From NCBI RefSeq assembly GCF_026810225.1, contig NZ_CP113865.1, positions 1,694,001 through 1,758,000 on the forward strand: a stretch of 64,000 nt of DNA, in the 5' to 3' direction. Origin of the DNA: Caldicellulosiruptor morganii (GTDB lineage: Bacteria > Bacillota > Thermoanaerobacteria > Caldicellulosiruptorales > Caldicellulosiruptoraceae). A model generated the notes under the pieces. It was not told the origin of the DNA, did no database searches, and saw only the letters and a program-made list of their open reading frames with translations. Below are positions 5,636 through 64,000 of the stretch, piece after piece. Position 1 is the stretch's first letter. Every line of letters starts with the position of its first letter. Position numbers and translations under genes: made by a program.

Positions 5636-6394
5636 TCAGTATTCTATACCAATCTTTTTAGCAAACTCTCTCAACATATTCTCTGTCTCTTTCCTCGACT
5701 TTTCCAGAATCTCTTCATAATCTTTCTTCCATATCTCAACATCCGCTCTGTCTATACCATTCCTCTTCGCATGTACCTTTCCCTCGTCTGTCTCAAAAAA
5801 CCACTTCTCCTTTATCCTCCAGTCATATCTCACATTAAAATACTTTGGTCTGTTGTCAAGTTCAAACTCTTTATACTTTTCCCAAACTTCTCGCCAGTTC
5901 TGTGGATTTTCTCTAAGCTCCCTCAGCAATTCCCTATACACCTTTATCGCTTCCATTGCAAGCTCTTCTCTTGCCTTGAAGTCAAGTATATACCATTTGC
6001 TATAATTCTCAGGATGCTCTGCTATGTCTTTGCTCTTCTCTTTGTAATACCCGGATTCATAATAATCAGCTAAAGCAGAGCATCCATTTCCAATAATGCC
6101 ATATAATTTCCTTATTCTCTTGTCAGTAAGTTTATCTATCGAATTACCAAATAAAGGAATAATATCATCTTCACTTTCAATCTGACTCTTCTGTGTCAAG
6201 CTCTGACTTTCATCTTTTTCGTAAACCACCTCATCCACTCTCTCTCCATTCTCGGATGCCAGTGCTATCTTCTGCACACCTTCAGATACTCCTCTTCCTG
6301 CTCCTGCACTCCCTCTGTTTAGCAAAATTCCTGCTCCTGTTAAACTTAATAAAAATATTCCTACCAGCACCATTATAACCACTCTTCTTTTCAT
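5636..6394 (-). CDS. Array paralog P1: unrecognised exported/membrane-anchored 252-residue protein
   Basis: I do not recognise this family. The N-terminus MKRR plus a hydrophobic stretch (about 5-25, no cysteine) is a signal peptide or signal anchor. A Gly/Ser/Glu-rich linker (about 28-75) follows, then a charged, mostly helical domain (about 85-252) with a conserved SKDIAEHPE motif, RELRENPQ.WREVWEKY and a C-terminal KKIGIEY. P1 carries block type A at residues 72-107 (EDDIIPLFGNSIDKL, containing one Cys at 105) and the KWFFET-type block near 197-213. It has its own likely promoter and a GAGAGGTG ribosome site. Last gene of the array. An immunity or inhibitor partner of the neighbouring amidase is possible but only a hypothesis. 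Confidence 0.8.
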   Translation of the reverse strand: MKRRVVIMVLVGIFLLSLTGAGILLNRGSAGAGRGVSEGVQKIALASENGERVDEVVYEKDESQSLTQKSQIESEDDIIPLFGNSIDKLTDKRIRKLYGIIGNGCSALADYYESGYYKEKSKDIAEHPENYSKWYILDFKAREELAMEAIKVYRELLRELRENPQNWREVWEKYKEFELDNRPKYFNVRYDWRIKEKWFFETDEGKVHAKRNGIDRADVEIWKKDYEEILEKSRKETENMLREFAKKIGIEY

Positions 6395-6416
6395 CTTCTC
6401 TCACACCTCTCTTCTC

Positions 6417-6453
6417 ATTATTTTGAACTTACCCTGTATAATATTACCCAGTT
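6417..6453 (-). repeat. Remnant of amidase 3' end in front of P1
   Basis: The minus strand reads in frame as NWVILYRVSSK and stop, identical to the last codons of both amidase genes, although no amidase gene is present here. Similar remnants precede P2, P4 and P5. Confidence 0.7.
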
Positions 6454-6466
6454 TGCAATTCTGCAA
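6438..6466 (-). promoter_or_regulatory. Likely P1 promoter
   Basis: TTGCAG (6461-6466), a 17-base spacer and TATTAT (6438-6443) on the minus strand. The -10 box lies inside the amidase-tail remnant. The same arrangement is present before P4 and P5 and, altered, before P2. Confidence 0.45.
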
Positions 6467-6668
6467 CTATTTCACTTTCAACTTTTTCCAATAAATTATT
6501 CCCCTGCCATTACATAAAGCTTCATCTGACAAACTTACATCTTACAAAATCTGCTTTATTTTATTATAACAGCTTCTCTGTAACATATCAATAAAAACTA
6601 ATTTCTCTTCAATCAATATTTTGATTTTTGTATATCTTAAATCAATCCAACAAAATCAAATACAAAAA

Positions 6669-6702
6669 AGCTTTTGTGAAGGTTTTTGCCCTCACAAAAG
6701 CT
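6669..6702 (-). terminator. Terminator hairpin after P2
   Basis: AGCTTTTGTGAAGG / CCCTCACAAAAGCT with one mismatch, followed by a T-run on the minus strand. Array copy 2. Confidence 0.75.
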
Positions 6703-6718
6703 CTCCTAAATATTACAC

Positions 6719-7477
6719 TCAGTATTCTATACCAATCTTTTTAGCAAACTCTCTCAACATATTCTCTGTCTCTCTCCTCGACTTTTCCAGAATCTTTTCA
6801 TAATCCCTCTTCCATATCTCAACATCCGCTCTGTCTAACTTTATTCCATTAGCCTCCATCTGCCTCTTCCCTTCCTCACTATTCAAAAACCACTCCTCCT
6901 TTATCCTCCAATCATAATCTACATTAAAATACTTCGGTCTAATGTCAAGTGTAAACTCTTTATACTTTTCCCAAACTTCTCGCCAGCTCTGTGGATTTTC
7001 TCTAAGCTCCCTCAGCAATTCCCTATACACCCTTATTGCTTCCATTGCAAGCTGCTCTTTTGCCTTGAATTCAAGTATATACAATTTGCTGTAATTCTCA
7101 GGATGTTCTGCTATATCTTTGCTCTTCTCTTTGTAATACCCGGATTCATAATAATCAGCTATGGGTCCTAAAGAAACTGAAATTATATCATAAATCTTCT
7201 TTACCCGCTCATCAGTAAACCTCTCTGTGGGGTCACCATATATAGCATCTTCCACACTTTCCCCCTGACTCTCCTGTGTCAAATTCTGACTTTCATCTTT
7301 TTCGTAAACCACCTCATCCACTCTCTCTCCATTCTCTGATGCCAGTGCTACTCTCTGCACACCTTCAGATACTCCTCTTCCTGCTCCTGCACTCACTCTC
7401 TTTACTAAAATTCCTGCACCCGTTAAACTTAATAAAAATATTCCTACCAGCACCATTATAACTGCTCTTCTTTTCAT
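6719..7477 (-). CDS. Array paralog P2: unrecognised exported/membrane-anchored 252-residue protein
   Basis: Same architecture as P1: basic start, hydrophobic segment 5-25, variable linker and helical C-terminal domain ending KKIGIEY. It differs in blocks. Residues 72-107 are type B (VEDAIYGDPTERFTDERV, no Cys), followed by SLGPIADYYES. The 175-190 block is the unique TLDIRPKYFNV form, and the 197-220 block is the WFLNSEEGKRQMEANG type with two extra residues. The N-terminal block KRVSAGAGRG/VQRV matches P3 and P6 and not P5, its positional partner in the duplication. Function unknown; a role connected with the adjacent secreted amidase is inferred only from linkage. Confidence 0.8.
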   Translation of the reverse strand: MKRRAVIMVLVGIFLLSLTGAGILVKRVSAGAGRGVSEGVQRVALASENGERVDEVVYEKDESQNLTQESQGESVEDAIYGDPTERFTDERVKKIYDIISVSLGPIADYYESGYYKEKSKDIAEHPENYSKLYILEFKAKEQLAMEAIRVYRELLRELRENPQSWREVWEKYKEFTLDIRPKYFNVDYDWRIKEEWFLNSEEGKRQMEANGIKLDRADVEIWKRDYEKILEKSRRETENMLREFAKKIGIEY

Positions 7478-7795
7478 CTTCTCTCACACCTCTCTTCTCA
7501 TTATTTTGAACTTACCCTGTATAAAATAATCCTTTTTGCAATTCTGCAGCTGCTTCACTTTTAACTTTTCCCAATAAATTATTCCCCTATCACTACATAA
7601 AGCTTCATCTGACAAACTTACATCTTACAAAACCTGCTTTATTTTATTATAACAGTTTTCTCTGTAACATATCAATAAAAACTAATTTCTCTTCAATCAA
7701 TATTTTGATTTTTGTATATCTTAAATCAATCCAACAAAATCAAAAGCTTTTGCGAAGGTTTTTCCCCTCACAAAAGCTCTAATTAAGCAGTGCTC
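7478..7795 (-). repeat. Array spacer repeat between P3 and P2 (copy 2 of 4)
   Basis: About 318 bases like 6395-6718. The amidase-tail remnant (7498-7530) is less well kept: the last codons YRVSSK-stop remain but the preceding NWVIL codons have diverged. No gene seen. Confidence 0.75.
7743..7778 (-). terminator. Terminator hairpin after P3
   Basis: Array copy 3 of the AGCTTTTG.GAAGG hairpin. The loop-side arm here is CCCCTCACAAAAGCT, so the top of the stem is weaker. Confidence 0.7.
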
Positions 7796-8554
7796 TTAGT
7801 ATTCTATACCAATCTTTTTAGCAAACTTTCTCAACATATTCTCTGTCTCTTTCCTCGACTTTTCCAGAATCTTTTCATAATCCTTCTTCCACTTCTCAAC
7901 ATCTGCTCTGTCTATACCATTCCTCTTCGCATGTACCTTCCCCTCTTCTGTCTCAAAAAACCACTTCTCCTTTATCCTCCAGTCATAATCTACATTAAAA
8001 TACTTTGGTCTGTTGTCAAGTTCAAACTCTTTATACTTTTCCCAAACTTCTCGCCAGTTCTGTGGATTTTCTCTAAGCTCTCTCATCAATTCCCTATACA
8101 CCCTTATTGCTTCCATTGCAAGCTGCTCTTCTGCCCTGAATTCAAGTATATACAATTTGCTGTAATTCTCAGGATGTTCTGCTATGTCTTTGCTCTTCTC
8201 TTTGTAATACCCGGATTCATAATAATCAGCTAAAGCAGAGCATCCATTTCCAATAATGCCATATAATTTCCTTATTCTCTTGTCAGTAAGTTTATCTATC
8301 GAATTACCAAACAAAGGAATAATATCATCTTCACTTTCAATCTGACTCTTCTGTGTCAAGCTCTGACTTTCATCTTTTTCGTAAACCACCTCATCCACTC
8401 TCTCTCCATTCTCTGATGCCAGTGCTACTCTCTGCACACCTTCAGATACTCCTCTTCCTGCTCCTGCACTCACTCTCTTTACTAAAATTCCTGCACCCGT
8501 TAAACTTAATAAAAATATTCCTACCAGCACCATTATAACTGCTCTTCTTTTCAT
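7796..8554 (-). CDS. Array paralog P3, directly downstream of amidase copy 1
   Basis: Unrecognised family, same layout as P1. Its start is 23 bases after the amidase stop, behind a GAGAGGTG ribosome site, so it is most likely translated from the amidase transcript. Blocks: N-terminal KRVSAGAGRG/VQRV type, type A at 72-107 as in P1 (including the single Cys), RPKYFNVDYDW at about 182-192 and KWFFETEEGKVHAKRNG at 197-213. It shares long stretches with P1 and not with P6, its positional partner in copy 2, which points to exchange between array members. Confidence 0.8.
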   Translation of the reverse strand: MKRRAVIMVLVGIFLLSLTGAGILVKRVSAGAGRGVSEGVQRVALASENGERVDEVVYEKDESQSLTQKSQIESEDDIIPLFGNSIDKLTDKRIRKLYGIIGNGCSALADYYESGYYKEKSKDIAEHPENYSKLYILEFRAEEQLAMEAIRVYRELMRELRENPQNWREVWEKYKEFELDNRPKYFNVDYDWRIKEKWFFETEEGKVHAKRNGIDRADVEKWKKDYEKILEKSRKETENMLRKFAKKIGIEY

Positions 8555-8577
8555 CTTCTCTCACACCTCTCTTCTCA

Positions 8578-9645
8578 TTATTTTGAACTTACCCTGTATA
8601 ATATTACCCAGTTTTTTGGAGTCGTCCTTTGCTGCAAATATTCAATAAAACTTCTACCATATACAAAATCGTCCGATGAAACAGAATGCTGTGCATATAA
8701 AAGGTCTGTTGATGTCTTGCTGACTATTACCTGTGAATGATAAGCTATGTTATCAGAATAACCTACATGCTGAACAATATCTCCCTCTTTTAAAAAGCCA
8801 AGCACTACACTGCTGAATCTCTCAATTGCATACCACACAGGATATATTCTAATTTGATATGCTCTGTTATACCCTGAACCATCAAAGTTACCCCAGTGCT
8901 GCCTGAAATAATTTGCACCCGTCCATGTTGTACTTCGGTTTGTTGATGTACGGTAAAACCAGTAGTTTGTATTACTTTCTATCCCAGAAGACGAAGAATA
9001 TATCATATTCATGTACCCTGCAAACAATACCTGTGAGGCAAAATTTGTACAATCTCCTCCATAGTTTGCAAAATTAGCAAATGTAATGCCCCTGCATGTG
9101 TAAGTATTTTGGTATGAATAGTTGCTTTTCGCATAATTTACAGCCGCCGCTCTATCATAACCTGAATTTGCATTAGCTGTATTAATTGATGATCTCATCA
9201 ACTGAAGATAATAATTATGTGAACCCGAATGCCCGTATGCACTTGATACCAAAACGTAATAATAACCATTGCTCGGAACTGTATACTGAATAAATTCGTT
9301 CTTACCGGTTGAATTGGTGGATGATGCTACCAAACTCTGTGAGGAATTATACAAATATAGGTTGTAATTTACAGCCTCGTGCGCATTGATAAGGCTTATC
9401 GAAACAATATCACCTGATTTCAAATATACCCTGAAATAATCTTTATCCTGCGAAGGGTTTGTTGTTTGATAAATCAAACCCTTTACAAAATCTCCACAAT
9501 TGATTGCATTTGCTGTTGAAAAACTGTTATTACTCTCCTGCTCTACTATCTCTCTTGCTTTTACAATCTCATTATAGCAAATTATCAATGTAAATGCTAC
9601 AAATAAAATCAAAAATTTTGGAAAATACCGCATAATCCTACTCAT
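8578..9645 (-). CDS. Secreted PPC-domain / Amidase_6-like protein, copy 1
   Basis: About 355 residues. A signal peptide (hydrophobic 10-25, cleavage plausible after IVKA) is followed by a bacterial pre-peptidase (PPC) beta-sandwich (about 38-150: ESNNSFSTANAI, DKDYFRVYLKSGDIVSI, FIQYTVPSNGYYYVLV). Next is an Amidase_6-type papain-fold domain (about 163-355) with GGDCTNFASQVLFAGY (nucleophile Cys near 199) and AYHSQVIV (His near 303). Amidase_6 proteins are predicted cell-wall or peptide amidases of Firmicutes; the substrate is unknown. An upstream in-frame GTG/TTG exists, but the ATG at 9645 is spaced best from AGGGG. P3 follows after 23 bases. Confidence 0.85.
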   Translation of the reverse strand: MSRIMRYFPKFLILFVAFTLIICYNEIVKAREIVEQESNNSFSTANAINCGDFVKGLIYQTTNPSQDKDYFRVYLKSGDIVSISLINAHEAVNYNLYLYNSSQSLVASSTNSTGKNEFIQYTVPSNGYYYVLVSSAYGHSGSHNYYLQLMRSSINTANANSGYDRAAAVNYAKSNYSYQNTYTCRGITFANFANYGGDCTNFASQVLFAGYMNMIYSSSSGIESNTNYWFYRTSTNRSTTWTGANYFRQHWGNFDGSGYNRAYQIRIYPVWYAIERFSSVVLGFLKEGDIVQHVGYSDNIAYHSQVIVSKTSTDLLYAQHSVSSDDFVYGRSFIEYLQQRTTPKNWVILYRVSSK

Positions 9646-9766
9646 CAACACACCCCTCTCACTCTTTGGTATTTTCAGTTTATAAAGTTATCTTTAAAAA
9701 CTTTTTCTTTTGCACAAATATACTTTTACAAATTAAACTCACCTCTTTAGTAAATAATTTACTTTT

Positions 9767-9799
9767 ATTATAGCACAACAACAACAACAACAACAACAA
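9767..9799 (-). promoter_or_regulatory. Amidase copy 1 promoter with (TTG)8 microsatellite in the -35/spacer region
   Basis: On the minus strand TATAAT (9767-9772) is preceded by TGC, an extended -10, and then by eight perfect TTG units (9776-9799). The repeat supplies both the -35 (TTGTTG, for example 9791-9796 with an 18-base spacer) and the spacer. It lies about 120 bases upstream of the amidase start. Confidence 0.65.
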
Positions 9800-9879
9800 T
9801 ATGTAAATTAACTAAAATTACTTTTTTAATTTGTAAAGCTTTAACAAAAACATAATGCAATTCTGTGAAAAAACAAAAA

Positions 9880-9914
9880 AGCTTTTGCGAAGGTTTTTGC
9901 CCTCACAAAAGCTC
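9880..9914 (-). terminator. Terminator hairpin after P4
   Basis: AGCTTTTGCGAAGG / CCTCACAAAAGCT with a T-run on the minus strand. Array copy 4. It separates copy 2 from the amidase copy 1 promoter. Confidence 0.75.
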
Positions 9915-9930
9915 TAATTAAGCAGTGCTC

Positions 9931-10689
9931 TCAGTATTCTATACCAATCTTTTTAGCAAATTCTCTCAACATATTCTCTGTCTCTTTCCTCGATTTTTCC
10001 AGAATCTCTTCATAATCCTTCTTCCACTTCTCAACATCTGCTCTGTCTAACTTTATTCCATTAGCCTCCATCTGCCTCTTCCCTTCCTCACTATTCAAAA
10101 ACCACTCCTCCTTTATCCTCCAGTCATATCTCACATTAAAATACTTTGGTCTGTTGTCAAGTTCAAACTCTTTATACTTTTCCCAAACTTCTCTCCAGCT
10201 CTGTGGATTTTCTCTAAGCTCCCTCATCAATTCCCTGTATACCTTTATCGCTTCCATTGCAAGCTGCTCTCTGCTCTTCCACTCAAGAATATACAATTCA
10301 TCATATTTTTCTGGATGTTCTGCTATGTCTTTAGAGGTTCTCTTCCAAGAATCAGAATAATAAAAGTCTGCTAATGCAGAACTTGAAACTAATATGATAT
10401 CATAAATCTTCTTTACTCGCTCATCAGTAAACTTCTCTGTAGGGTCACCATATATAGCATCTTCCACACTTTCACCCTGACTCTTCTGTGTCAAGCTCTG
10501 ACTTTCATCTTTTTCGTAAACCACCTCATCCACTCTCTCTCCATTCTCGGATGCCAGTGCTATCTTCTGCACACCTTCAGATACTCCTCTTCCTGCTCCT
10601 GCACTCCCTCTCTTTACTAAAATTCCTGCACCCGTTAAACTTAATAAAAATATTCCTACCAGCACCATTATAACTGCTCTTCTTTTCAT
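9931..10689 (-). CDS. Array paralog P4: unrecognised exported/membrane-anchored 252-residue protein
   Basis: Same layout as P1. Blocks: N-terminal KRGSAGAGRG/VQKI type, type B at 72-100, then the type C segment SSALADFYYSDSWKRTSKD with EKYDELYILEWKSREQ (shared only with P6). It also has ELDNRPKYFNVRYDW (shared with P1) and WFLNSEEGKRQMEANG (shared with P2 and P6). It is the positional partner of P1 in the 4.3-kb duplication, yet resembles P1 only in the first and third blocks. Own promoter and amidase-tail remnant upstream. Function unknown. Confidence 0.8.
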   Translation of the reverse strand: MKRRAVIMVLVGIFLLSLTGAGILVKRGSAGAGRGVSEGVQKIALASENGERVDEVVYEKDESQSLTQKSQGESVEDAIYGDPTEKFTDERVKKIYDIILVSSSALADFYYSDSWKRTSKDIAEHPEKYDELYILEWKSREQLAMEAIKVYRELMRELRENPQSWREVWEKYKEFELDNRPKYFNVRYDWRIKEEWFLNSEEGKRQMEANGIKLDRADVEKWKKDYEEILEKSRKETENMLREFAKKIGIEY

Positions 10690-11015
10690 CTTCTCTCACA
10701 CCTCTCTTCTCATTATTTTGAACTCACCCTGTATAATATTACCCAGTTTGCAATTCTGCAACTATTTCACTTCCAACTTTTTCCAATAAATTATTCCCCT
10801 GTCATTACATAAAGCTCCATCTGACAAACTTACATCTTACAAAATCTGCTTTATTTTATTATAACAGTTTTCTCTGTAACATATCAATAAAAACTAATTT
10901 CTCTTCAATCAATATTTTGATTTTTGTATATCTTAAATCAATCCAACAACATCAAATACAAAAAAGCTTTTGCGAAGGTTTTTGCCCTCACAAAAGCTCT
11001 AATTAAGCAGTGCTC
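10690..11015 (-). repeat. Array spacer repeat between P5 and P4 (copy 3 of 4)
   Basis: About 326 bases, nearly identical to 6395-6718 and 11769-12093. Contains the amidase-tail remnant at 10712-10748 and the P4 promoter. No gene seen. Confidence 0.8.
10966..11000 (-). terminator. Terminator hairpin after P5
   Basis: AGCTTTTGCGAAGG / CCTCACAAAAGCT with a T-run on the minus strand. Array copy 5. Confidence 0.75.
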
Positions 11016-11768
11016 TCAGTATTCTATACCAATCTTTTTAGCAAATTCTCTCAACATATTCTCGGTCTCTTTCCTCGACTTTTCTAGAATCTTTTCATAA
11101 TCCTTCTTCCATATCTCAACATCTGCTCTGTCTATACCATTCCTCTTCGCATGTACCTTCCCCTCTTCTGTCTCAAAAAACCACTTCTCTTTTATCCTCC
11201 AGTCATAATCTACATTCAATATCTTAGGTCTGAATTCAAGTTTAAAATTTTTATACTTTTCCCAAACTTCTCGCCAGCTCTGCGGATTTTCTCTAAGCTC
11301 CCTCAGCAATTCCCTATACACCCTTATTGCTTCCATTGCAAGCTCTTCTCTTGCCTTGAAGTCAAGTATATACCATTTGCTGTAATTCTCAGGATGTTCT
11401 GCTATGTCTTTGCTTTCTCTCTTATATAACTCAGATTCATAATAATCAGCTATGGGTCCTAAAGAAACTGAAATTATATCATAAATCTTCTTTACTCGCT
11501 CATCAGTAAACCTCTCTGTAGGGTCACAGTATATAGCATCTTCTACACTTTCACCCTGACTCTCCTGTGTCAAGCTCTGACTTTCATCTTTTTCGTAAAC
11601 CACCTCATCCACTCTCTCTCCATTCTCTGATGCCAGTGCTATCTTCTGCACACCTTCAGATACTCCTCTTCCTGCTCCTGCACTCCCTCTGCTTACCAAA
11701 ATTCCTGCTCCTGTTAAACTTAATAAAAATATTCCTACCAGCACTATTATAACTGCTCTTCTTTTCAT
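11016..11768 (-). CDS. Array paralog P5: unrecognised exported/membrane-anchored 250-residue protein
   Basis: Same layout as P1 but two residues shorter, because the 197-220 block is the WFFETEEGKVHAKRNG-IDRADVE form. Blocks: SRGSAGAGRG/VQKI N-terminus, type B at 72-107 with a Cys (DAIYCDPTERF) where the others have Gly, then SLGPIADYYESELYKRE as in P2. The middle block KLEFRPKILNVDYDW is shared with P6. A GGCGGGTGAGAG sequence replaces the usual GAGAGGTGTGAGAG ribosome region, so its translation strength may differ from the others. Function unknown. Confidence 0.8.
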   Translation of the reverse strand: MKRRAVIIVLVGIFLLSLTGAGILVSRGSAGAGRGVSEGVQKIALASENGERVDEVVYEKDESQSLTQESQGESVEDAIYCDPTERFTDERVKKIYDIISVSLGPIADYYESELYKRESKDIAEHPENYSKWYILDFKAREELAMEAIRVYRELLRELRENPQSWREVWEKYKNFKLEFRPKILNVDYDWRIKEKWFFETEEGKVHAKRNGIDRADVEIWKKDYEKILEKSRKETENMLREFAKKIGIEY

Positions 11769-12093
11769 CTTCTCTCACCCGCCTTTTCTCATTATTTTGA
11801 ACTCACCCTGTATAATATTACCCAGTTTGCAATTCTGCAACTATTTCACTTCCAACTTTTTCCAATAAATTATTCCCCTGTCATTACATAAAGCTCCATC
11901 TGACAAACTTACATCTTACAAAATCTGCTTTATTTTATTATAACAGTTTTCTCTGTAACATATCAATAAAAACTAATTTCTCTTCAATCAATATTTTGAT
12001 TTTTGTATATCTTAAATCAATCCAACAAAATCAAATACAAAAAAGCTTTTGTGAAGGTTTTTGCCTTCACAAAAGCTCTCCTAAATATTACAC
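11769..12093 (-). repeat. Array spacer repeat between P6 and P5 (copy 4 of 4)
   Basis: About 325 bases, almost identical to 10690-11015. Amidase-tail remnant at 11791-11827. No gene seen. Confidence 0.8.
12044..12079 (-). terminator. Terminator hairpin after P6
   Basis: AGCTTTTGTGAAGG / CCTTCACAAAAGCT, a perfect 14-base stem with a T-run on the minus strand. Array copy 6. Confidence 0.8.
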
Positions 12094-12852
12094 TCAGTAT
12101 TCTATACCAATCTTTTTAGCATACTTTCTCAACATATTCTCTGTCTCTTTCCTCGACTTTTCCAGAATCTTTTCATAATCCCTCTTCCATATCTCAACAT
12201 CTGCTCTGTCTAACTTTATTCCATTAGCCTCCATCTGCCTCTTCCCTTCCTCACTATTCAAAAACCACTTCTCTTTTATCCTCCAGTCATAATCTACATT
12301 CAATATCTTAGGTCTAAATTCAAGTTCAAAATTTTTATACTTTTCCCAAACTTCTCGCCAGTTCTGTGGATTTTCTCTAAGCTCTCTCATCAATTCTTCA
12401 TACACCTTTATCGCTTCCATTGCAAGCTGCTCTCTGCTCTTCCACTCAAGAATATACAATTCATCATATTTTTCTGGATGTTCTGCTATGTCTTTAGAGG
12501 TTCTCTTCCAAGAATCAGAATAATAAAAGTCTGCTAATGCAGAACTTGAAACTAATATAATATCATAAATCTTCTTTACTCGCTCATCAGTAAACCTCTC
12601 TGTGGGGTCACCATATATAGCATCTTCCACACTTTCCCCCTGACTCTCCTGTGTCAAATTCTGACTTTCACCTTTCCCATAAATCACTTCATCCACTCTC
12701 TCTCCATTCTCTGATGCCAGTGCTACTCTCTGCACACCTTCAGATACTCCTCTTCCTGCTCCTGCACTCACTCTCTTTACTAAAATTCCTGCACCCGTTA
12801 AACTTAATAAAAATATTCCTACCAGCACCATTATAACTGCTCTTCTTTTCAT
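12094..12852 (-). CDS. Array paralog P6, directly downstream of amidase copy 2
   Basis: Same layout as P1 and 23 bases after the amidase stop, as for P3. Blocks: KRVSAGAGRG/VQRV N-terminus (as P2 and P3), a diverged linker (EVIYGKGESQNLTQ), type B at 72-100 and the type C segment with DSWKRTSKD and EKYDELYILEW (as P4). ELEFRPKILNV is close to P5, and WFLNSEEGKRQMEANG matches P2 and P4. The C-terminus LRKYAKKIGIEY is slightly different. Function unknown; the amidase linkage suggests partner proteins. Confidence 0.8.
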   Translation of the reverse strand: MKRRAVIMVLVGIFLLSLTGAGILVKRVSAGAGRGVSEGVQRVALASENGERVDEVIYGKGESQNLTQESQGESVEDAIYGDPTERFTDERVKKIYDIILVSSSALADFYYSDSWKRTSKDIAEHPEKYDELYILEWKSREQLAMEAIKVYEELMRELRENPQNWREVWEKYKNFELEFRPKILNVDYDWRIKEKWFLNSEEGKRQMEANGIKLDRADVEIWKRDYEKILEKSRKETENMLRKYAKKIGIEY

Positions 12853-12875
12853 CTTCTCTCACACCTCTCTTCTCA

Positions 12876-13943
12876 TTATTTTGAACTTACCCTGTATAAT
12901 ATTACCCAGTTTTTTGGAGTCGTCTTCTTCTGCAAATATTCAATAAAACTTCTACCATATTCAAAATATTCCGGTAATACAGAATGCTGTGCATATAAAA
13001 GGTCTGTTGATGTCTTGCTGACTATTACCTGTGAATGATAAGCTTCGCAGTTATCATACCGTACATGCTGAACAATATCCCCCTCTTTTAAAAACCCCAG
13101 CACTACACTGCTGAATCTCTCAATTGCATACCACACAGGATATATTCTCACCTGATATGCTCTGTTATACCCTGAACCATCAAAGTTACCCCAGTGCTGC
13201 CTGAAATAATTTGCACCCGTCCATGTTGTACTTCGGTTTGTTGGTGTCCGGTAAAACCAGTAGTTTGTATTACTTTCTATCCCAGAAGCCGAAGAATATA
13301 TCATATTCATGTACCCTGCAAACAATACCTGTGAGGCAAAATTTGTACAATCCCCTCCATCGTTTGCAAAATTAGCAAATGTGATGCCCCTGCATGTGTA
13401 CTTATCTTTGTATGAATAGTTGCTTTTCGCATAATTTACAGCCGCCGCTCTATCATAACCTGAATTTGCATTAGCTGTATTAATTGATGATCTCATCAAC
13501 TGAAGATAATAATAATGTGAACCCGAATGCCCGTATGCACTTGATACCAAAACGTAATAATAACCATTGCTCGGAACTGTGTATTGAATAAATTCGTTCT
13601 TACCGGTTGAATTGGTGGATGATGCTACCAAACTCTGTGAGGAATTATACAAATATAGGTTGTAATTTACAGCCTCGTGCGCATTTATAAGGCTTATTGA
13701 AACAATATCGCCTGATTTCAAATATACCTTGAAATAATCTTTATCCTGCGAAGGGTTTGTTGTTTGATAAATCAAACCCTTTACAAAATCTCCACAATTG
13801 ATTGCATTTGCTGTTGAAAAACTGTTATTACTCTCCTGCTCTACTATCTCTCTTGCTTTTACAATCTCATTATAGCAAATTATCAATGTAAATGCTACAA
13901 ATAAAACCAAAAGTTTTGGAAAATACCGCATAATCCTACTCAT
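12876..13943 (-). CDS. Secreted PPC-domain / Amidase_6-like protein, copy 2
   Basis: Nearly identical to the protein at 8578-9645 with the same signal peptide, PPC domain and catalytic GGDCTNFAS and YHSQVIV motifs. Differences cluster in the catalytic domain, around the region before the active His (QHVRYDNCEAYHSQ versus QHVGYSDNIAYHSQ) and just after QHSV (LPEYFEYG versus SSDDFVYG). Surface or specificity loops may therefore be diversifying while the core is kept. Same ATG choice as copy 1. P6 follows after 23 bases. Confidence 0.85.
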   Translation of the reverse strand: MSRIMRYFPKLLVLFVAFTLIICYNEIVKAREIVEQESNNSFSTANAINCGDFVKGLIYQTTNPSQDKDYFKVYLKSGDIVSISLINAHEAVNYNLYLYNSSQSLVASSTNSTGKNEFIQYTVPSNGYYYVLVSSAYGHSGSHYYYLQLMRSSINTANANSGYDRAAAVNYAKSNYSYKDKYTCRGITFANFANDGGDCTNFASQVLFAGYMNMIYSSASGIESNTNYWFYRTPTNRSTTWTGANYFRQHWGNFDGSGYNRAYQVRIYPVWYAIERFSSVVLGFLKEGDIVQHVRYDNCEAYHSQVIVSKTSTDLLYAQHSVLPEYFEYGRSFIEYLQKKTTPKNWVILYRVSSK

Positions 13944-14064
13944 CAACACACCCCTCTCACTCTTTGGTATTTTCAGTTCATAAAGTTATCTTTAAAAACT
14001 TTTTCTTTTGCACAAATATACTTTTACAAATTAAACTCACCTCTTTAGTAAATAATTTACTTTT

Positions 14065-37419: not shown

Positions 37420-39852
37420 TTACAGGCACTTTATAACAACTTCTGCACTCTTAAGCCCTTCTGCTAAAACTCTGACTCTAATCTCTCCTTCCTCCCCAAT
37501 GCTCTTTACGATTGCAAGTGCACGTCCTTTATAAAGCTTTCTTTGAGGTCTAACAAAAAGCTCGGTTGACAGTGGGTCAGATGTTCCCAATGCCACAAAT
37601 CTACCCGCACCTTCAACCTCTACAGTTACTCTGTTATCTGCATATGGTACTTCTCTTTCCTTTTTATCCACTGCAATGATTTTTATATAGCACAAATCAT
37701 CACGTGAAGAAATTACATTTCTGTCAGGCAGCAGCTTTAAAGCAACTGGTCTGTCAGCTGTCTCTATCTTATCTGTGCCAATTTCTTTGCCATTTTTATA
37801 CGCCACTGCTTCAATAATGCCCGGTTCATAAAGCAATTCAAATACCGCTTTAAACCGGGTATCAAAATTACACGGTTTTCGCCCAAGACTTTTCCCATTT
37901 ACAAACACTTCCACCTCATCCGCATCTGCATAAACATGAACTGCCAAAGGCATCCCTTCACAGCCCGGAAATGTATAGCTGCGCTCAACAGGTTCCCACG
38001 CCCAGGGTCTGAAATACAGTTTTTTCCCAAAAAGCTGTGGTGGAAGGACTACTATATAGGGTTCTTTTCTCAATCCCCAAACTATATCACGATAATAGGA
38101 CTGAGGACGTTTATCTCCACAAATATCTATATCCCCACAGTTTGCATAAAACCATGGAAACTCGCCACCAAACATCTTAGCTTCATTCTCGTCTGTACAG
38201 ACTCTACCTATTCCTGCTTCACCCAGATAGTCAATAGCAGTCCATACAAAATCACCAATAACATTTGGATTTTTTACAGTTTCGGTCCAGTTTTTGAACA
38301 AAGTATATGGATACGTCTCTGTGCCACATATGATACGGTCAGGATACTTTTCTAAATCATATGAATATCTGTCCACTTTGTAGTTATAACCTGCAACATC
38401 TAAAAACTTAAAAAATTTTTCTGTAACTTTCCCCCACCTGTCGTTGTTTACAACCGGTCCCTGTTTTAACATTCTAATTACATTATTCCCGTCTTCAATT
38501 GTTGCAAGAAGGCTTTCATAATCGGCGGGAATTGCACAAAACGCTGCAGTGACCAATCTTGTTGAATCCAGTTCTTTTACTTTTTGTGCCAGGCGACTGC
38601 ACCATGTGTATATGCTTGAATATCCATCTTCATCATCTACATCAATTCCAACACCCCAGGTAATTTCATTCCCAATAGACCACATTATAATGGAAGGGTG
38701 ATTATAATCTCTCACAATGGTGGCTTCCAAATCTTCTTCCCAATACTTGTCAAAGAAAAGATGGTAGTCGAAACTCAGTTTGCCTGCCGTCCAGACATCA
38801 AAAAATTCCTCAATTACAAGCAAACCCAATCTATCGCATGCCTCCAAAAATGCCGGTGCAAACGGATTATGGGCAAGTCTTACTGCATTGAACCCGGAAG
38901 CTTTTAAAAGCTCAACCTTTCTCTCCTCTGCTCTATCATAGCTGGCACTACCAAGAGGTCCGTTGTCATGATGGATACATCCACCCTTTAATTTTATAAT
39001 CTTACCATTCAGCTTTAACCCTTCTTCCGGACTTACCGATATTGTACGTATTCCAAAAAACGTAGAACTGCTGTCTTCAATATTCTCATCTATTTTAATT
39101 GCTGCACGAATTTTATAAAGACAGGGATTTTCTATATCCCAATATTTAAATGGTGATAATGTTATGATTTTACCAATTGTTTTTTCCTCATTGTTGCTGA
39201 GAACAAATTGCTCCTGAGTGTCTGCTATCAGCTTATCATCATCCGAAAAGATACTGAACTCCACAACTCCCTGAACACTCTCATTTGTGCTATTTGCCAG
39301 AGTTGCTCTGATTTCTAACACTGCCTTTTCATTTTCAATAGCTCTGGTTTCAACATGCAAGCGCCACGGTTTTATGTAAACTTTGCCACCCAAATGAAGC
39401 CACACATGCCTGTATATGCCACAGCCCGCATACCATCTTGAACCTGGTTTATGAGTATTTTCCACATGTACAACAATAATATTTTTGTTACCAAACTTAA
39501 CATGTTTTGTTATATCGACAAGAAAACTTGTGTATCCATTGAAATGTTTGGCAACAAGCCTTCCATTTACAAAGACCTCTGAGATACCCATTATCCCTTC
39601 AAACTCAAGTATTAAGTTCTTGCCTTCCCAATCCTTTTCTAACACCAGCTCTTTTTTGTAATACAAACTCAAGCCCGGTGTATATCCTTCTGAGGCACCA
39701 GAGGGATTATTTGCACTTCTTTCTTTCTCAATAACAGCATCATGCGGTAAATCTACTTTCTTCCATTCCAAATTTAAACTCTCTAAATTTAAAACGTTAA
39801 CCAGGCTGCTTTCAGCATACTCCCAGGACCTGTTCAAGTTTATTTTCTCCAT
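37420..39852 (-). CDS. GH2-family beta-glycosidase (beta-galactosidase/beta-glucuronidase type)
   Basis: About 810 residues. A sugar-binding jelly-roll domain (about 1-170) leads to an immunoglobulin-like domain (about 175-280) and the TIM barrel (about 285-580). The acid/base glutamate is in MWSIGNEITWG and the nucleophile in CGTETYP. C-terminal Ig-like domains (about 600-810) follow. There is no signal peptide, so it is cytosolic and acts on imported oligosaccharides. Last gene after uxuA, fitting a role in glucuronoxylan side-chain breakdown, but the exact sugar is not readable. The ATG at 39852 has no clear ribosome site; a folded repeat element lies directly upstream. The frame is open upstream into that element, which I do not count as coding. 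Confidence 0.85.
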   Translation of the reverse strand: MEKINLNRSWEYAESSLVNVLNLESLNLEWKKVDLPHDAVIEKERSANNPSGASEGYTPGLSLYYKKELVLEKDWEGKNLILEFEGIMGISEVFVNGRLVAKHFNGYTSFLVDITKHVKFGNKNIIVVHVENTHKPGSRWYAGCGIYRHVWLHLGGKVYIKPWRLHVETRAIENEKAVLEIRATLANSTNESVQGVVEFSIFSDDDKLIADTQEQFVLSNNEEKTIGKIITLSPFKYWDIENPCLYKIRAAIKIDENIEDSSSTFFGIRTISVSPEEGLKLNGKIIKLKGGCIHHDNGPLGSASYDRAEERKVELLKASGFNAVRLAHNPFAPAFLEACDRLGLLVIEEFFDVWTAGKLSFDYHLFFDKYWEEDLEATIVRDYNHPSIIMWSIGNEITWGVGIDVDDEDGYSSIYTWCSRLAQKVKELDSTRLVTAAFCAIPADYESLLATIEDGNNVIRMLKQGPVVNNDRWGKVTEKFFKFLDVAGYNYKVDRYSYDLEKYPDRIICGTETYPYTLFKNWTETVKNPNVIGDFVWTAIDYLGEAGIGRVCTDENEAKMFGGEFPWFYANCGDIDICGDKRPQSYYRDIVWGLRKEPYIVVLPPQLFGKKLYFRPWAWEPVERSYTFPGCEGMPLAVHVYADADEVEVFVNGKSLGRKPCNFDTRFKAVFELLYEPGIIEAVAYKNGKEIGTDKIETADRPVALKLLPDRNVISSRDDLCYIKIIAVDKKEREVPYADNRVTVEVEGAGRFVALGTSDPLSTELFVRPQRKLYKGRALAIVKSIGEEGEIRVRVLAEGLKSAEVVIKCL

Positions 39853-39869
39853 GGTTGATAACCAAAAAG

Positions 39870-39983
39870 CGTCCAAAATGGCCATCACTTTCTGATGCCG
39901 CTTTGGACGGCCGGGGTATTTTATTTTCCGCCCTTTAAAAGAGGTTGTTCCAGCCCCGGCAGGCGGTTTTTGGAACAACCTCT
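39870..39983 (-). ncRNA. Pseudoknot-like structured element, copy A
   Basis: Plus coordinates: stem AGAGGTTGTTCCA (39940-39952) / TGGAACAACCTCT (39971-39983). Its 18-base loop contains CCCCGGC (39954-39960), complementary to GCCGGGG (39910-39916), and GGCGG (39962-39966), complementary to CCGCC (39928-39932). A further hairpin has CGTCCAAA / TTTGGACG arms (39870-39877 and 39902-39909). The same layout, with compensatory changes, is at 63610-63707. Both copies end just before a minus-strand start codon. Identity unknown: cis-acting RNA, or the folded end of a small mobile element. Confidence 0.6.
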
Positions 39984-40004: not shown

Positions 40005-41075
40005 TTACCGTTTTGACATCTTCTCTATAGCTTCCCAGAGACCATTTAGATATGCAACTCCAAGTGCCCTGTCATAAAGCCCATAGCCAGGTCTTCCCTT
40101 TTCTCCCCAAATCATTCTTCCATGGTCAGGTCGCAAATACCCTTCAAATCCTATATCATATATCGCCTTCATTATCTCAAACATGTCAAACGAGCCATCT
40201 GCTGACAGGTGTGATGTCTCATAAAAAGACCTCTCACCTGTAAATTTAATATTTCTCACATGCATAAAGTGAATCCTGCCCATTTTGCCAAAATATCTTA
40301 TAAGCTCTGGAATATTGTTCTCCCTGTTTGCACCGAGTGAACCTGTACAGAGCGTAAGACCATTGTACGGACTGTCAACAGCCTTTAGAAATCTTTCTAT
40401 GTTCTCTTTATTTGTTACAATTCTTGGAAGTCCAAATAGTGACCATGGCGGGTCATCAGGATGAATTGCCATCCTAACATCGCACTCTTCACAAACAGGA
40501 ATTATGTTTTCCAAAAAGTAGATTAAATTTTGAAGAAGCTTCTCTTCATCAACTTCTTTGTACAGCTCAAAAAGATTTTGCAGCTGTCTTAGCCTGTAGC
40601 TTTCCCAGCCCGGAAGTGAAAATCCCCTTGAGCCACTCTCCATGCTCTTTACAAGTTCATCCGGTGTGAGATTCTTTAGCATCTCATGATTGTATTCCAT
40701 AACCTCTGAACCATCAGAAAGCTTTTTAGCAAGGTCTGTTCTCAGCCAGTCAAACACAGGCATGAAGTTGTAACATATAACCTTTATACCTGCTTTTGCT
40801 AAGTTTCTTATGGTCTGTTTGTAGTTTTCTATATACCTGTCTCTTGTTGGAAGTCCAAGCTTTATATCCTCATGAACGTTTACACTTTCTATCACTTCAA
40901 ACTTGAGCCCTGCGTCCTCCACCATCTTTTTAAGTTCCAATATTTTCTCCTCCGGCCAAACCTCACCCACCGGAATGTCAAAAAGAGCAGTTACAACACC
41001 ATATATTCCTGGAATCTGACGAATATACTCAAGTGGAATGCTATCGTCATTTGGTCCAAACCACCTGAATGTCAT
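40005..41075 (-). CDS. uxuA: Mannonate dehydratase
   Basis: About 356 residues, a TIM-barrel metal enzyme converting D-mannonate to 2-keto-3-deoxygluconate. The start MTFRWFGPNDDSIPLEYIRQ, the HPDDPPWSLFGLPRI motif, TLCTGSLGA and RPDHGRMIWGE are typical. The ATG at 41075 overlaps the uxuB stop (ATGA). An ATG at 41087 behind GGAAAGGAG at long spacing is also possible. Central to the glucuronate pathway of the locus. Confidence 0.95.
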   Translation of the reverse strand: MTFRWFGPNDDSIPLEYIRQIPGIYGVVTALFDIPVGEVWPEEKILELKKMVEDAGLKFEVIESVNVHEDIKLGLPTRDRYIENYKQTIRNLAKAGIKVICYNFMPVFDWLRTDLAKKLSDGSEVMEYNHEMLKNLTPDELVKSMESGSRGFSLPGWESYRLRQLQNLFELYKEVDEEKLLQNLIYFLENIIPVCEECDVRMAIHPDDPPWSLFGLPRIVTNKENIERFLKAVDSPYNGLTLCTGSLGANRENNIPELIRYFGKMGRIHFMHVRNIKFTGERSFYETSHLSADGSFDMFEIMKAIYDIGFEGYLRPDHGRMIWGEKGRPGYGLYDRALGVAYLNGLWEAIEKMSKR

Positions 41076-42739
41076 TTTAAAACCCATTTTCCCATTCGAC
41101 TCCTTTCCTTTTTGTTTAATTGCATCCAACATTTCTCAAGTGTCTTCCTTACAGCACCAGCACCTTCTATCATCTCTTTAAAATAACCAATAACCTTTTC
41201 TGCCAGACCAACCTCAAAAAGATTTACTCTAAAGAGCGTCTGGTTTGATAATATGGGTTTTAGCTTCTGATCTAAATTTTCTACCTCCCTGCCAAGCTCA
41301 ATCCCGCTGATATATTTTCTAAGCTCATCCAAAAGGGGGTCGGGACTTGGCTCAAAAGGCTTGCCACTGTCATCTACACACAAAAGGTATCTCAGCCACC
41401 CTGCTATCACAAGCGGTATGAACTTTAAACTTCTTACATCCAAATTTGGACTTTCGCTGTACGCCTTTATTGTCTCACCAAATCTCACCGGCATCTTCTG
41501 AGATGTGTCTGTTGCTATTCTCTGCGGTGTATCCGGTATATACGGGTTGGGAAACCTCTCCTCAATTACCTCTTTAAGATATTCTTTCGGGTCAATTATC
41601 CCGGGGTCAACCACAACAGGCAATCCCTCTTCGTATCCTATTTTCTCGATAAGTTTCTTTAGACACCGGTCTTTTACCTCTTCATAGATTGTCCTGTAAC
41701 CAAGAAGACACCCAAATATCGCCAAAGCAGTGTGTAGCGGATTGAGACAGGTCTGCACCTTCATTCGCTCTGAGTTTTCAACCGTCTGCCTGTCTGCAAA
41801 ATAAACTCCTGCCTTCTCAAGAGGCGGTCTGCCATTTGGAAAGCTGTCTTCAATCACAAGATACTGAGACTTTTCTGTATTGACAAAAGGCGCTATATAC
41901 GTGTTTTTGGATGTACAGATTATATCCATTTTCTCCAATCGGTCTTTTTCAAGCAGTTCTTTTATGCTCTCAGAAGGTCTTGGAACAATCTTGTCTATCA
42001 TGCTCCATGGAAAACTAACTGAAGAAGGATTGCTGAGATATTCAACAAATCCTTCTTCTACTAATTTGTTTTTTGCCCACTCTTTTGCTATTTGAATGAT
42101 TGAACTATAAAGCCTCTCACCATTTCTTGAGCAGTTGTCAAGGCTAACAACTGCAATCGGGTGCTTACCATTTCTGTACCTTACATACAAAAGTGAGGCA
42201 ACCTTCCCCATACTACTTTTAGGCTTTTCTGGTCCGTTTTCTATGTCCTCTCTTACCTGTGGCAGATATTTACCTTCCAGATCAAAAATATTGTATCCCT
42301 TTTCTGTAATAGTAAATGTCACCATTTGCAAAGTTGCACTTTTGAAAATTTCACAAAGCCTTGTCCAATCATCTTTAAAATCAGGGTCGCACTTTAGTGC
42401 TTCAGTAATACTTGCAATTACTCTTTTTTGCAGATTTCCTTTTGCATCTGCTGTGACAACCAAACAAAGATTATCATATGGTTTGTAGATTCTATCTATA
42501 ATTTCATAGTCAAATAGCTCTGCTGCAATAATCCCTGTCTGAACCTCGCCTTTTTCTAACAAATCCTGCCAAAGTGCTGCAATGTACCCTCTGAAGATAT
42601 TCCCTGCCCCAAAGTGAAGACATGTGGGATTTTTAAGTGTGTTTTTTATAACATCTTCCATATCAAACTTTGGTGTCTCAATTTGAATCTTTTGCCACAA
42701 ATCTTTATGTGCAAGACTTTCTTTATTTAACTTTAGCAT
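41072..42739 (-). CDS. uxuB: D-fructuronate reductase (D-mannonate oxidoreductase)
   Basis: About 555 residues of the long-chain mannitol dehydrogenase family. The nucleotide-binding start is CLHFGAGNIFRGYIA, with VSLDNCSRNGERL and CLNPLHTALAIFG around the catalytic region. It reduces fructuronate to mannonate with NAD(P)H. ATG at 42739 (MLKLNKES) follows GATGAGG; a GTG at 42748 is inside the ribosome site. Between GH67 and uxuA. Tagaturonate reductase (UxaB) is the main alternative, and the uxuA neighbour favours UxuB. Confidence 0.88.
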   Translation of the reverse strand: MLKLNKESLAHKDLWQKIQIETPKFDMEDVIKNTLKNPTCLHFGAGNIFRGYIAALWQDLLEKGEVQTGIIAAELFDYEIIDRIYKPYDNLCLVVTADAKGNLQKRVIASITEALKCDPDFKDDWTRLCEIFKSATLQMVTFTITEKGYNIFDLEGKYLPQVREDIENGPEKPKSSMGKVASLLYVRYRNGKHPIAVVSLDNCSRNGERLYSSIIQIAKEWAKNKLVEEGFVEYLSNPSSVSFPWSMIDKIVPRPSESIKELLEKDRLEKMDIICTSKNTYIAPFVNTEKSQYLVIEDSFPNGRPPLEKAGVYFADRQTVENSERMKVQTCLNPLHTALAIFGCLLGYRTIYEEVKDRCLKKLIEKIGYEEGLPVVVDPGIIDPKEYLKEVIEERFPNPYIPDTPQRIATDTSQKMPVRFGETIKAYSESPNLDVRSLKFIPLVIAGWLRYLLCVDDSGKPFEPSPDPLLDELRKYISGIELGREVENLDQKLKPILSNQTLFRVNLFEVGLAEKVIGYFKEMIEGAGAVRKTLEKCWMQLNKKERSRMGKWVLK

Positions 42740-63203: not shown

Positions 63204-63590
63204 TTAACACATACACTCCGACGCATTTTCTTTGTCCGATAGTTTTACAATCTTATTGTTTTCATCTACAAATACCACTTTAGGTCTATGGTTTTTATAC
63301 TCCTCCATTGTAATCAAACAATAAGCCATAATGATTACTTTATCTCCGACCTGCACCAAACGAGCAGCTGCACCATTTAAACAAATTGTTCCACTACCAG
63401 CTTCTCCTTTTATCACATATGTTTCAAATCTCTCTCCGTTGTTTATATTCACAACCTGAACCTTTTCATTTTCCAGTATTCCAGCTGCCTGCATAAGTTT
63501 TTCATCAATTGTAATACTCCCAACGTAGTTCAGATTGGCTTCTGTAACGGTTGCCCTGTGTATCTTGGATTTCAAAACTTCTATAAGCAT
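63204..63590 (-). CDS. panD: Aspartate 1-decarboxylase proenzyme
   Basis: 128 residues. Self-cleaves at Gly24-Ser25 (NYVGSITID) to create the pyruvoyl group; Lys9 ([11 protein letters not shown]) and the [19 protein letters not shown] segment are conserved. Makes beta-alanine for pantothenate and CoA. The terminal ECMC is unusual. Structured element copy B ends about 20 bases upstream of its start, so its translation or transcription may depend on that element. panB and panC are not in the window. Confidence 0.95.
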
Positions 63591-63609
63591 TTTTGATCAA
63601 ACCTGGTCA

Positions 63610-63707
63610 TCTAAACTGTGCAAAACTGCACAAGCTTAGACGGCTGGGGTATTTGTAGTCCGCCCTTCAGACTTTCCCAGCCCCAGCAGGCGGTTTTTGG
63701 GAAAGTC
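63610..63707 (-). ncRNA. Pseudoknot-like structured element, copy B
   Basis: Stem GACTTTCCC (63670-63678) / GGGAAAGTC (63699-63707). The loop contains CCCCAGC (63681-63687), complementary to GCTGGGG (63643-63649), and GGCGG (63689-63693), complementary to CCGCC (63660-63664). A proximal hairpin has TCTAA/TTAGA and GTGCA/TGCAC arms (63610-63640). It matches copy A in design and in the shared unpaired positions, while the paired bases differ in a compensatory way. Confidence 0.6.
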
Positions 63708-63960
63708 ATAGCCCCTGCCTTTAAGTGGCAGGAACTCACGCCGATTTTCGGTCTCCCCACTTGCCCTGAAACCAATATCCGTTTCAGGACAGACATGTCT
63801 CGCAACACCCTGCCAGGGGAGAGCGGTGTTACCACCGCTACCCTGAGAACTCGCCAGAGATTGTAGCCTGTGCTACAACTACCTGCACTTGTTCCATCCA
63901 GAGGTGCAAATAGCCTCCCTGACTCACTCCCAGAGCTTTGTATCTTACGCATTACATATT
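63708..63960 (-). other. Densely hairpin-forming region at the window edge
   Basis: At least four perfect or near-perfect hairpins in a row: AGGCAGG-type (63715-63732), CTGAAAC/GTTTCAG (63766-63786), AGCGGTG/CACCGCT (63822-63839) and TTGTAGC/GCTACAA (63861-63878). A 125-residue frame on the minus strand (63611-63988) has no recognisable family and runs through the structured element, so I do not call it a gene. It could be the right end of an IS200/IS605-TnpB-type element (with a guide-RNA-like transcript) or another large structured RNA. The rest is outside the window. Confidence 0.4.
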
Positions 63961-64000
63961 CAATCTCTTTGATTTGCCTTTTTCTCAAGTTGGCATTTTT

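Follow-up and report, generated by a model that had tools for sequence, protein, structure and literature searches.

Our analysis indicates, with a probability of roughly 85%, that the structured RNA element found before the GH2 gene and before panD of Caldicellulosiruptor morganii belongs to IS607-type TnpB insertion sequences of thermophilic Firmicutes as the 3' domain of their guide RNA (omegaRNA/reRNA), and that the copy before GH2 is a separate solo derivative of it. The assignment to omegaRNA/reRNA is presumed from location and architecture. Ends of IS607/TnpB elements are already known to make guide RNA (PMC11061315, PMC10711439); what is new here is a putative guide-RNA class absent from Rfam, with an unusual crossing fold. 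Both copies lie in the window, by which we mean the whole analysed stretch of 64,000 nucleotides.

Fold of the RNA domain and its pairing

We located again the two minus-strand copies, each just before a start codon, that had been reported for GH2 and panD (Table 1). The RNA domain was 110-125 nt long and consisted of three mutually crossing helices, a, b and c, and a terminal hairpin d, in the minus-strand order a-b-c-a'-b'-c'-d in both copies. The loop of hairpin a held CCGCC and GCYGGGG; their partners, GGCGG and CCCCRGC, were located downstream and were followed by the long hairpin d. Helix a of the GH2 copy, first described as a 13-base stem, has 12 bp and reaches 13 when its closing A-U is counted.

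Table 1. Positions of the two RNA domains, their parts and neighbouring features in the window.
Feature	Position	Strand	Remarks
GH2 gene	37420..39852	-	ATG at 39852, start 10 nt past the GG of the element
GH2 copy, solo RNA domain between uxuA and GH2	39862..39983	-	helices a, b, c, hairpin d, terminal GG; pairing test and orthologs in 10 other genomes of the genus
GH2 copy, helix a	39983-39972 with 39951-39940	-	12 bp, 13 with closing A-U
GH2 copy, helix b	CCGCC 39966-39962 with GGCGG 39932-39928	-	one G-C to A-U double change
GH2 copy, helix c	GCCGGGG 39960-39954 with CCCCGGC 39916-39910	-	three pairs double-changed
GH2 copy, terminal hairpin d	39909-39870	-	sequence replaced between clades, pairing kept
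GH2 copy, terminal GG	39863-39862	-	
uxuA (mannonate dehydratase), upstream neighbour	40005..41132	-	
panD	63204..63590	-	Shine-Dalgarno split off by the insertion
panD copy, right-end RNA domain of insertion sequence	63602..63707	-	helices a, b, c and hairpin d; ends in ACCAGG
panD copy, helix a	63707-63699 with 63678-63670	-	
panD copy, helix b	63693-63689 with 63664-63660	-	
panD copy, helix c	GCTGGGG 63687-63681 with CCCCAGC 63649-63643	-	
panD copy, hairpin d	63642-63608	-	
panD copy, terminal GG	63603-63602	-	
IS607/TnpB insertion sequence, 3' part	63602..64000, continuing outside the window as far as roughly genome 1759332	-	end of tnpB frame, upstream guide-RNA region, right end

The pairing was tested on 11 copies from the same genome and on 15 diverse members from several species. 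Among the former, 98.3% of cells were paired; shuffles gave 92%, and slid partners no more than 49%. In these copies 8 pairs were changed on both sides (2.5 in shuffles). The diverse members gave 89% versus 80% of cells paired and 17 versus 8.5 double-changed pairs. Compensatory changes were present in all three crossing helices: in the diverse members they affected 7 of 8 pairs of helix a, 1 of 5 of helix b and 3 of 7 of helix c, and in the own copies 6 of 9 pairs of helix a. Since helices b and c vary little, support for these two comes from few changes. All four helices were re-formed in each of the 28 members examined, in some of them weakly. Single-strand folding, which is blind to the pseudoknot, gave z-scores of -5.4 for the GH2 copy and -3.7 for the panD copy. 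The claim of a selected pseudoknot with real compensatory change was therefore borne out by the pairing tests. The failure to match it to a known riboswitch or ribozyme class was borne out as well, as no relevant Rfam match was obtained at gathering or at E ≤ 5 (seven loci at E ≤ 5, RAGATH-18 included). We considered membership of RAGATH-18 (RF03064) and rejected it; none of its matches in 12 genomes of the genus exceeded the cut-off, and the weak ones lie elsewhere than the elements.

In two of the own copies (C1:578601 and C1:1568570; L044 and L045) helix a was of an entirely different sequence, GGAGTGCT/AGCACTCC, which is also the common type in Fervidicola-like genera. This shared helix hints at recombination between element lineages.

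The insertion sequence and its protein

The genome, a single contig of 2.475 Mb, was searched by pattern and by model and gave 11 clear copies of the RNA domain, together with a divergent (C1:2173492), a decayed (C1:1512866) and a weak copy (C1:1829793). The preliminary description of a two-copy element was not upheld; the element does not stand alone, and the two copies differ in kind. Ten of the 11 clear copies, including that of panD, end a repeat of more than 1.5 kb and form the right end of an IS607/TnpB insertion sequence of about 1.7 kb, which has nine other copies in the genome besides that at panD. Many copies bounded as the end of a transposable element, one half of the outcome which that description had set against its own reading (the other half being that no RNA is made), are what we found for the panD copy; the GH2 copy is solo, without tnpB. 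We looked for plasmid-borne relatives and detected none.

Other solo copies and remnants were also observed. The divergent copy (L106, C1:2173492-2173611, minus strand), with helix b CCACC/GGTGG, is solo and sits between glycosyltransferase-like and membrane-protein genes, directly before a start codon. Another solo copy, in genome G001 (L084 1501-1613; C1:230108-230222), lies between sugar-ABC-permease-like and secreted-protein-like genes with a start codon 10 nt downstream. Two remnants (L104, G011 C1:1304390; L105, G003 C1:592530) consist of hairpin d and an ACCAGG- or GCAGG-like end only, and occupy an orthologous site in two species.

The repeat codes for a protein of about 490 aa that matched the TnpB profiles TIGR01766 (67 bits, cut-off 32) and TIGR01765 (77 bits, cut-off 47). 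The RuvC D-E-D triad was invariant in this group (alignment A6). The predicted model of the protein (pTM 0.52, medium confidence) was closest to Cas12f/TnpB structures, including ISFba1 TnpB, and a sequence search of the PDB gave only a marginal Cas12f1 match. Between motifs II and III of RuvC, alignment A6 contained no conserved zinc-ribbon (TNB) cysteines; the match to PF07282 covered just the first 28 of its 60 positions and scored below the cut-off. A zinc ribbon is usual in TnpB proteins, but not universal. As it is missing here, we call the protein TnpB-related and atypical. Its C-terminal extension is translated guide-RNA sequence (A6; L036 8054-9199). The tnpB frame was shifted in the panD copy and open in nine others. 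The IS607 serine recombinase TnpA was kept, broken, upstream of two copies (C1:59800-63000 and C1:1568000-1571200) and was absent from the other own copies. The recombinase at C1:59800-63000 had MerR and Resolvase domains and matched NF033518 at 7e-27 with 94.2 bits, under the curated cut-off of 110 because its frame is broken.

Relatives of this TnpB were found at 44 loci of other genera (Thermoanaerobacter, Caldanaerobacter, Fervidicola, Thermovorax, Caldicoprobacter and others). The RNA model matched a domain directly 3' of tnpB at 29 of these, and many of the remaining loci were cut by contig ends or had partial genes. Within the class, 22 of 37 genomes carry the domain, all from two genera. 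Upstream of the domain, conservation of the RNA continues for about another 220 nt across the 3' end of the tnpB frame, with indels that are not multiples of three. A conserved structured RNA region thus runs from the 3' end of tnpB to the right end of the element, the location of an omegaRNA or reRNA.

We compared the element with known systems. The RAGATH-18-derived reRNA of the IS607 TnpB of ISFba1 (PMC11061315) is likewise a pseudoknotted guide RNA located at the tnpB 3' end, takes its guide from the right flank and has a G-rich, Shine-Dalgarno-like TAM (AGGAG/GAGGG). That reRNA, however, is described as lying apart from the coding sequence of tnpB, whereas the conserved region of our element overlaps the tnpB frame; our TnpB is also distant from that of ISFba1 in sequence and has no zinc ribbon. 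The comparison with ISXfa1 (PMC10711439) covered the GG crossover, a TAM containing GGG and a right-end RNA of about 150 nt that reaches past the transposon boundary, and in these the two are alike. The omegaRNA of ISDra2 TnpB (PMC8612924, PMC10278001) is also a guide RNA that lies at the right end and overlaps tnpB at its 3' end, but ISDra2 is of the IS200/IS605 type with a Y1 transposase, a different RNA fold and an A+T-rich TAM (PMC11061315). The present element would add to the IS607/TnpB elements of thermophiles a guide-RNA class with a three-helix crossing pseudoknot. Its covariance model works, and many intact TnpB partners exist for testing.

Insertion between Shine-Dalgarno sequence and start codon

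In ten other species panC and panD are joined by an uninterrupted panC-GGAGG-panD sequence, with GTGGAGG directly before panD. In the window the element lies between that GG and TTTGATCAAAAATG, and the panD ATG (63590) follows the terminal GG of the element. Comparison of this filled site with the empty sites of the ten species placed the crossover at GG and revealed no target duplication, as is known for IS607 (PMC6188088, PMC10711439). The left flank was GGAGG in 7 of the 8 own copies with an alignable left end. On the right flank an ATG with an open frame was located within 14 nt in 9/10 own copies and 14/21 copies of the genus (ATG only), while 7% of GG and 17% of GGAGG control sites in the window had such an ATG. 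In other genera a start codon was at most 13 nt away at 25 of 29 loci.

Characterised IS607 TnpBs have the TAM AGGAG or GAGGG (PMC11061315), and both are Shine-Dalgarno sequence. These observations suggest that the G-rich TAM of IS607 TnpBs may amount to Shine-Dalgarno targeting, which would explain insertions that separate the ribosome-binding site from the start codon. The position before start codons, we infer, results from target choice combined with the loss of gene-breaking insertions. The terminal AGG of the element is a weak substitute Shine-Dalgarno. In the mostly open-access literature that we searched, no paper linked Shine-Dalgarno sequences with the TAMs or the insertions of IS607 elements.

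The domain makes up the right end of the insertion sequence, directly 3' of the RuvC-type TnpB-like gene, and stops at the GG crossover; the host sequence that starts there is the would-be guide. A Shine-Dalgarno GGAGG supplies the GG at which the elements sit, and the start codon is just downstream. In the mechanism that we propose, the RNA would be produced and bound by TnpB, for which it would act as guide, with GGAGG as the putative TAM. TnpB with its RNA may cut uninserted alleles at such sites and so keep the element in place, by analogy with characterised IS607 TnpBs (PMC11061315). In the same reading, the ancestor of the genus already had a solo 3' domain between uxuA and GH2, and selection for its fold has kept it there.

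The solo copy before GH2 and the competing readings

The GH2 copy lacks tnpB and the upstream RNA region of about 220 nt that is conserved in the transposon copies. It was present between uxuA and GH2 in all 11 genomes of the genus that have GH2; the twelfth genome has no GH2. It belongs to a uronate operon that also has GH67. The genes next to it were about 50% identical at fourfold sites between two clades; in the same comparison the unpaired and b/c segments of the GH2 copy were near-invariant, and its stems, hairpin d included, were rebuilt with their pairing. Helix a was weakened in two genomes (G001 and G010). No GH2 locus free of the element was found among the 11 GH2-bearing genomes, so insertion between TTAGAGG and TTATCAACCATG of an empty site is inferred only. 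The GH2 copy is limited to the genus and the tnpB-linked form is wider, which supports its presumed origin from transposon RNA; in our reading it is a domesticated remnant.

The Shine-Dalgarno of GH2 was weak at best, and that of panD and most uxuA genes was strong. We also checked for an upstream Shine-Dalgarno bridged across the RNA, and a purine-rich stretch was located left of the GH2 copy in most, not all, species. The GH2 copy probably acts in cis on GH2 as a structured 5'UTR element. More tentatively, it could be an exapted guide-RNA 3' domain that controls GH2 translation or transcription in cis, independently of TnpB, and replaces the lost Shine-Dalgarno context. Three other candidates were rejected. 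A simple scan detected no minus-strand terminator at the GH2 copy, and hairpin d has no U-run in most orthologs; a small conserved ORF that would open with ATGGCGG within the element was discarded, as its ATG is not conserved; and the would-be guide of the GH2 copy had only chance-level matches to a second chromosomal site.

It is doubtful that the GH2 copy is instead a non-autonomous guide-RNA parasite, for which TnpB supplied in trans would cut GH2 alleles without the copy, so that it homes with no host function. Its fold, guide boundary and position before a start codon do match the transposon copies, such a TnpB is encoded in 10 of the 11 genomes carrying the GH2 copy, and other scattered solo copies exist; however, the missing upstream region, the loss of the terminal ACCAGG in the GH2-copy orthologs, the genus-wide persistence at one orthologous site and genome G010, which keeps the copy with no such TnpB, argue against this reading. 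That the conserved unit is a DNA end, with recombinase binding sites and palindromes and an incidental RNA fold, we consider very improbable. In duplex DNA the crossing helices b and c, with the compensatory changes in them, are without a role; helix a was swapped wholesale with its pairing kept, and the GH2 copy is conserved at one site without a transposon. In favour of this reading, the element is the terminus of a transposon, recombinase sites are present in IS607 ends (PMC6188088) and palindrome-only remnants exist.

Least probable of all is an unrecognised riboswitch or ribozyme carried along by the transposon. A compact multi-pseudoknot that precedes start codons, has no Rfam match and in its GH2 copy belongs to a uronate operon would fit it, but the domain lies directly 3' of tnpB across genera, and the transposon copies precede unrelated genes because the element inserts there. 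A riboswitch or ribozyme has no support in the transposon copies, and where the GH2 copy is concerned, orthologs in 11 genomes strengthen the idea of a conserved 5'UTR RNA.

Regarding the reading of the GH2 copy as domesticated guide RNA, a precedent is TldR, TnpB-like RNA-guided repressors (PMC13418256), in which TnpB-type machinery is also turned to control of host genes. In TldR the domesticated part is the protein, acting in trans with a guide, whereas here only the RNA domain is kept beside one gene. In the mostly open-access literature searched we found no precedent for a long-conserved solo 3' guide-RNA domain. The GH2 copy would offer a testable case, with eleven natural variants, of a piece of transposon guide RNA domesticated as RNA alone.

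Elsewhere in the window, at 5636-13949 of the minus strand, we observed ORFs of near-identical length (250-252 aa; 5636, 6719, 7796, 9931, 11016 and 12094), interleaved with two 357-aa ORFs (8578 and 12876) with amidase and PPC domains. Those of the 252-aa proteins that were tested had no Pfam match. This run of ORFs looks like a recent tandem duplication.
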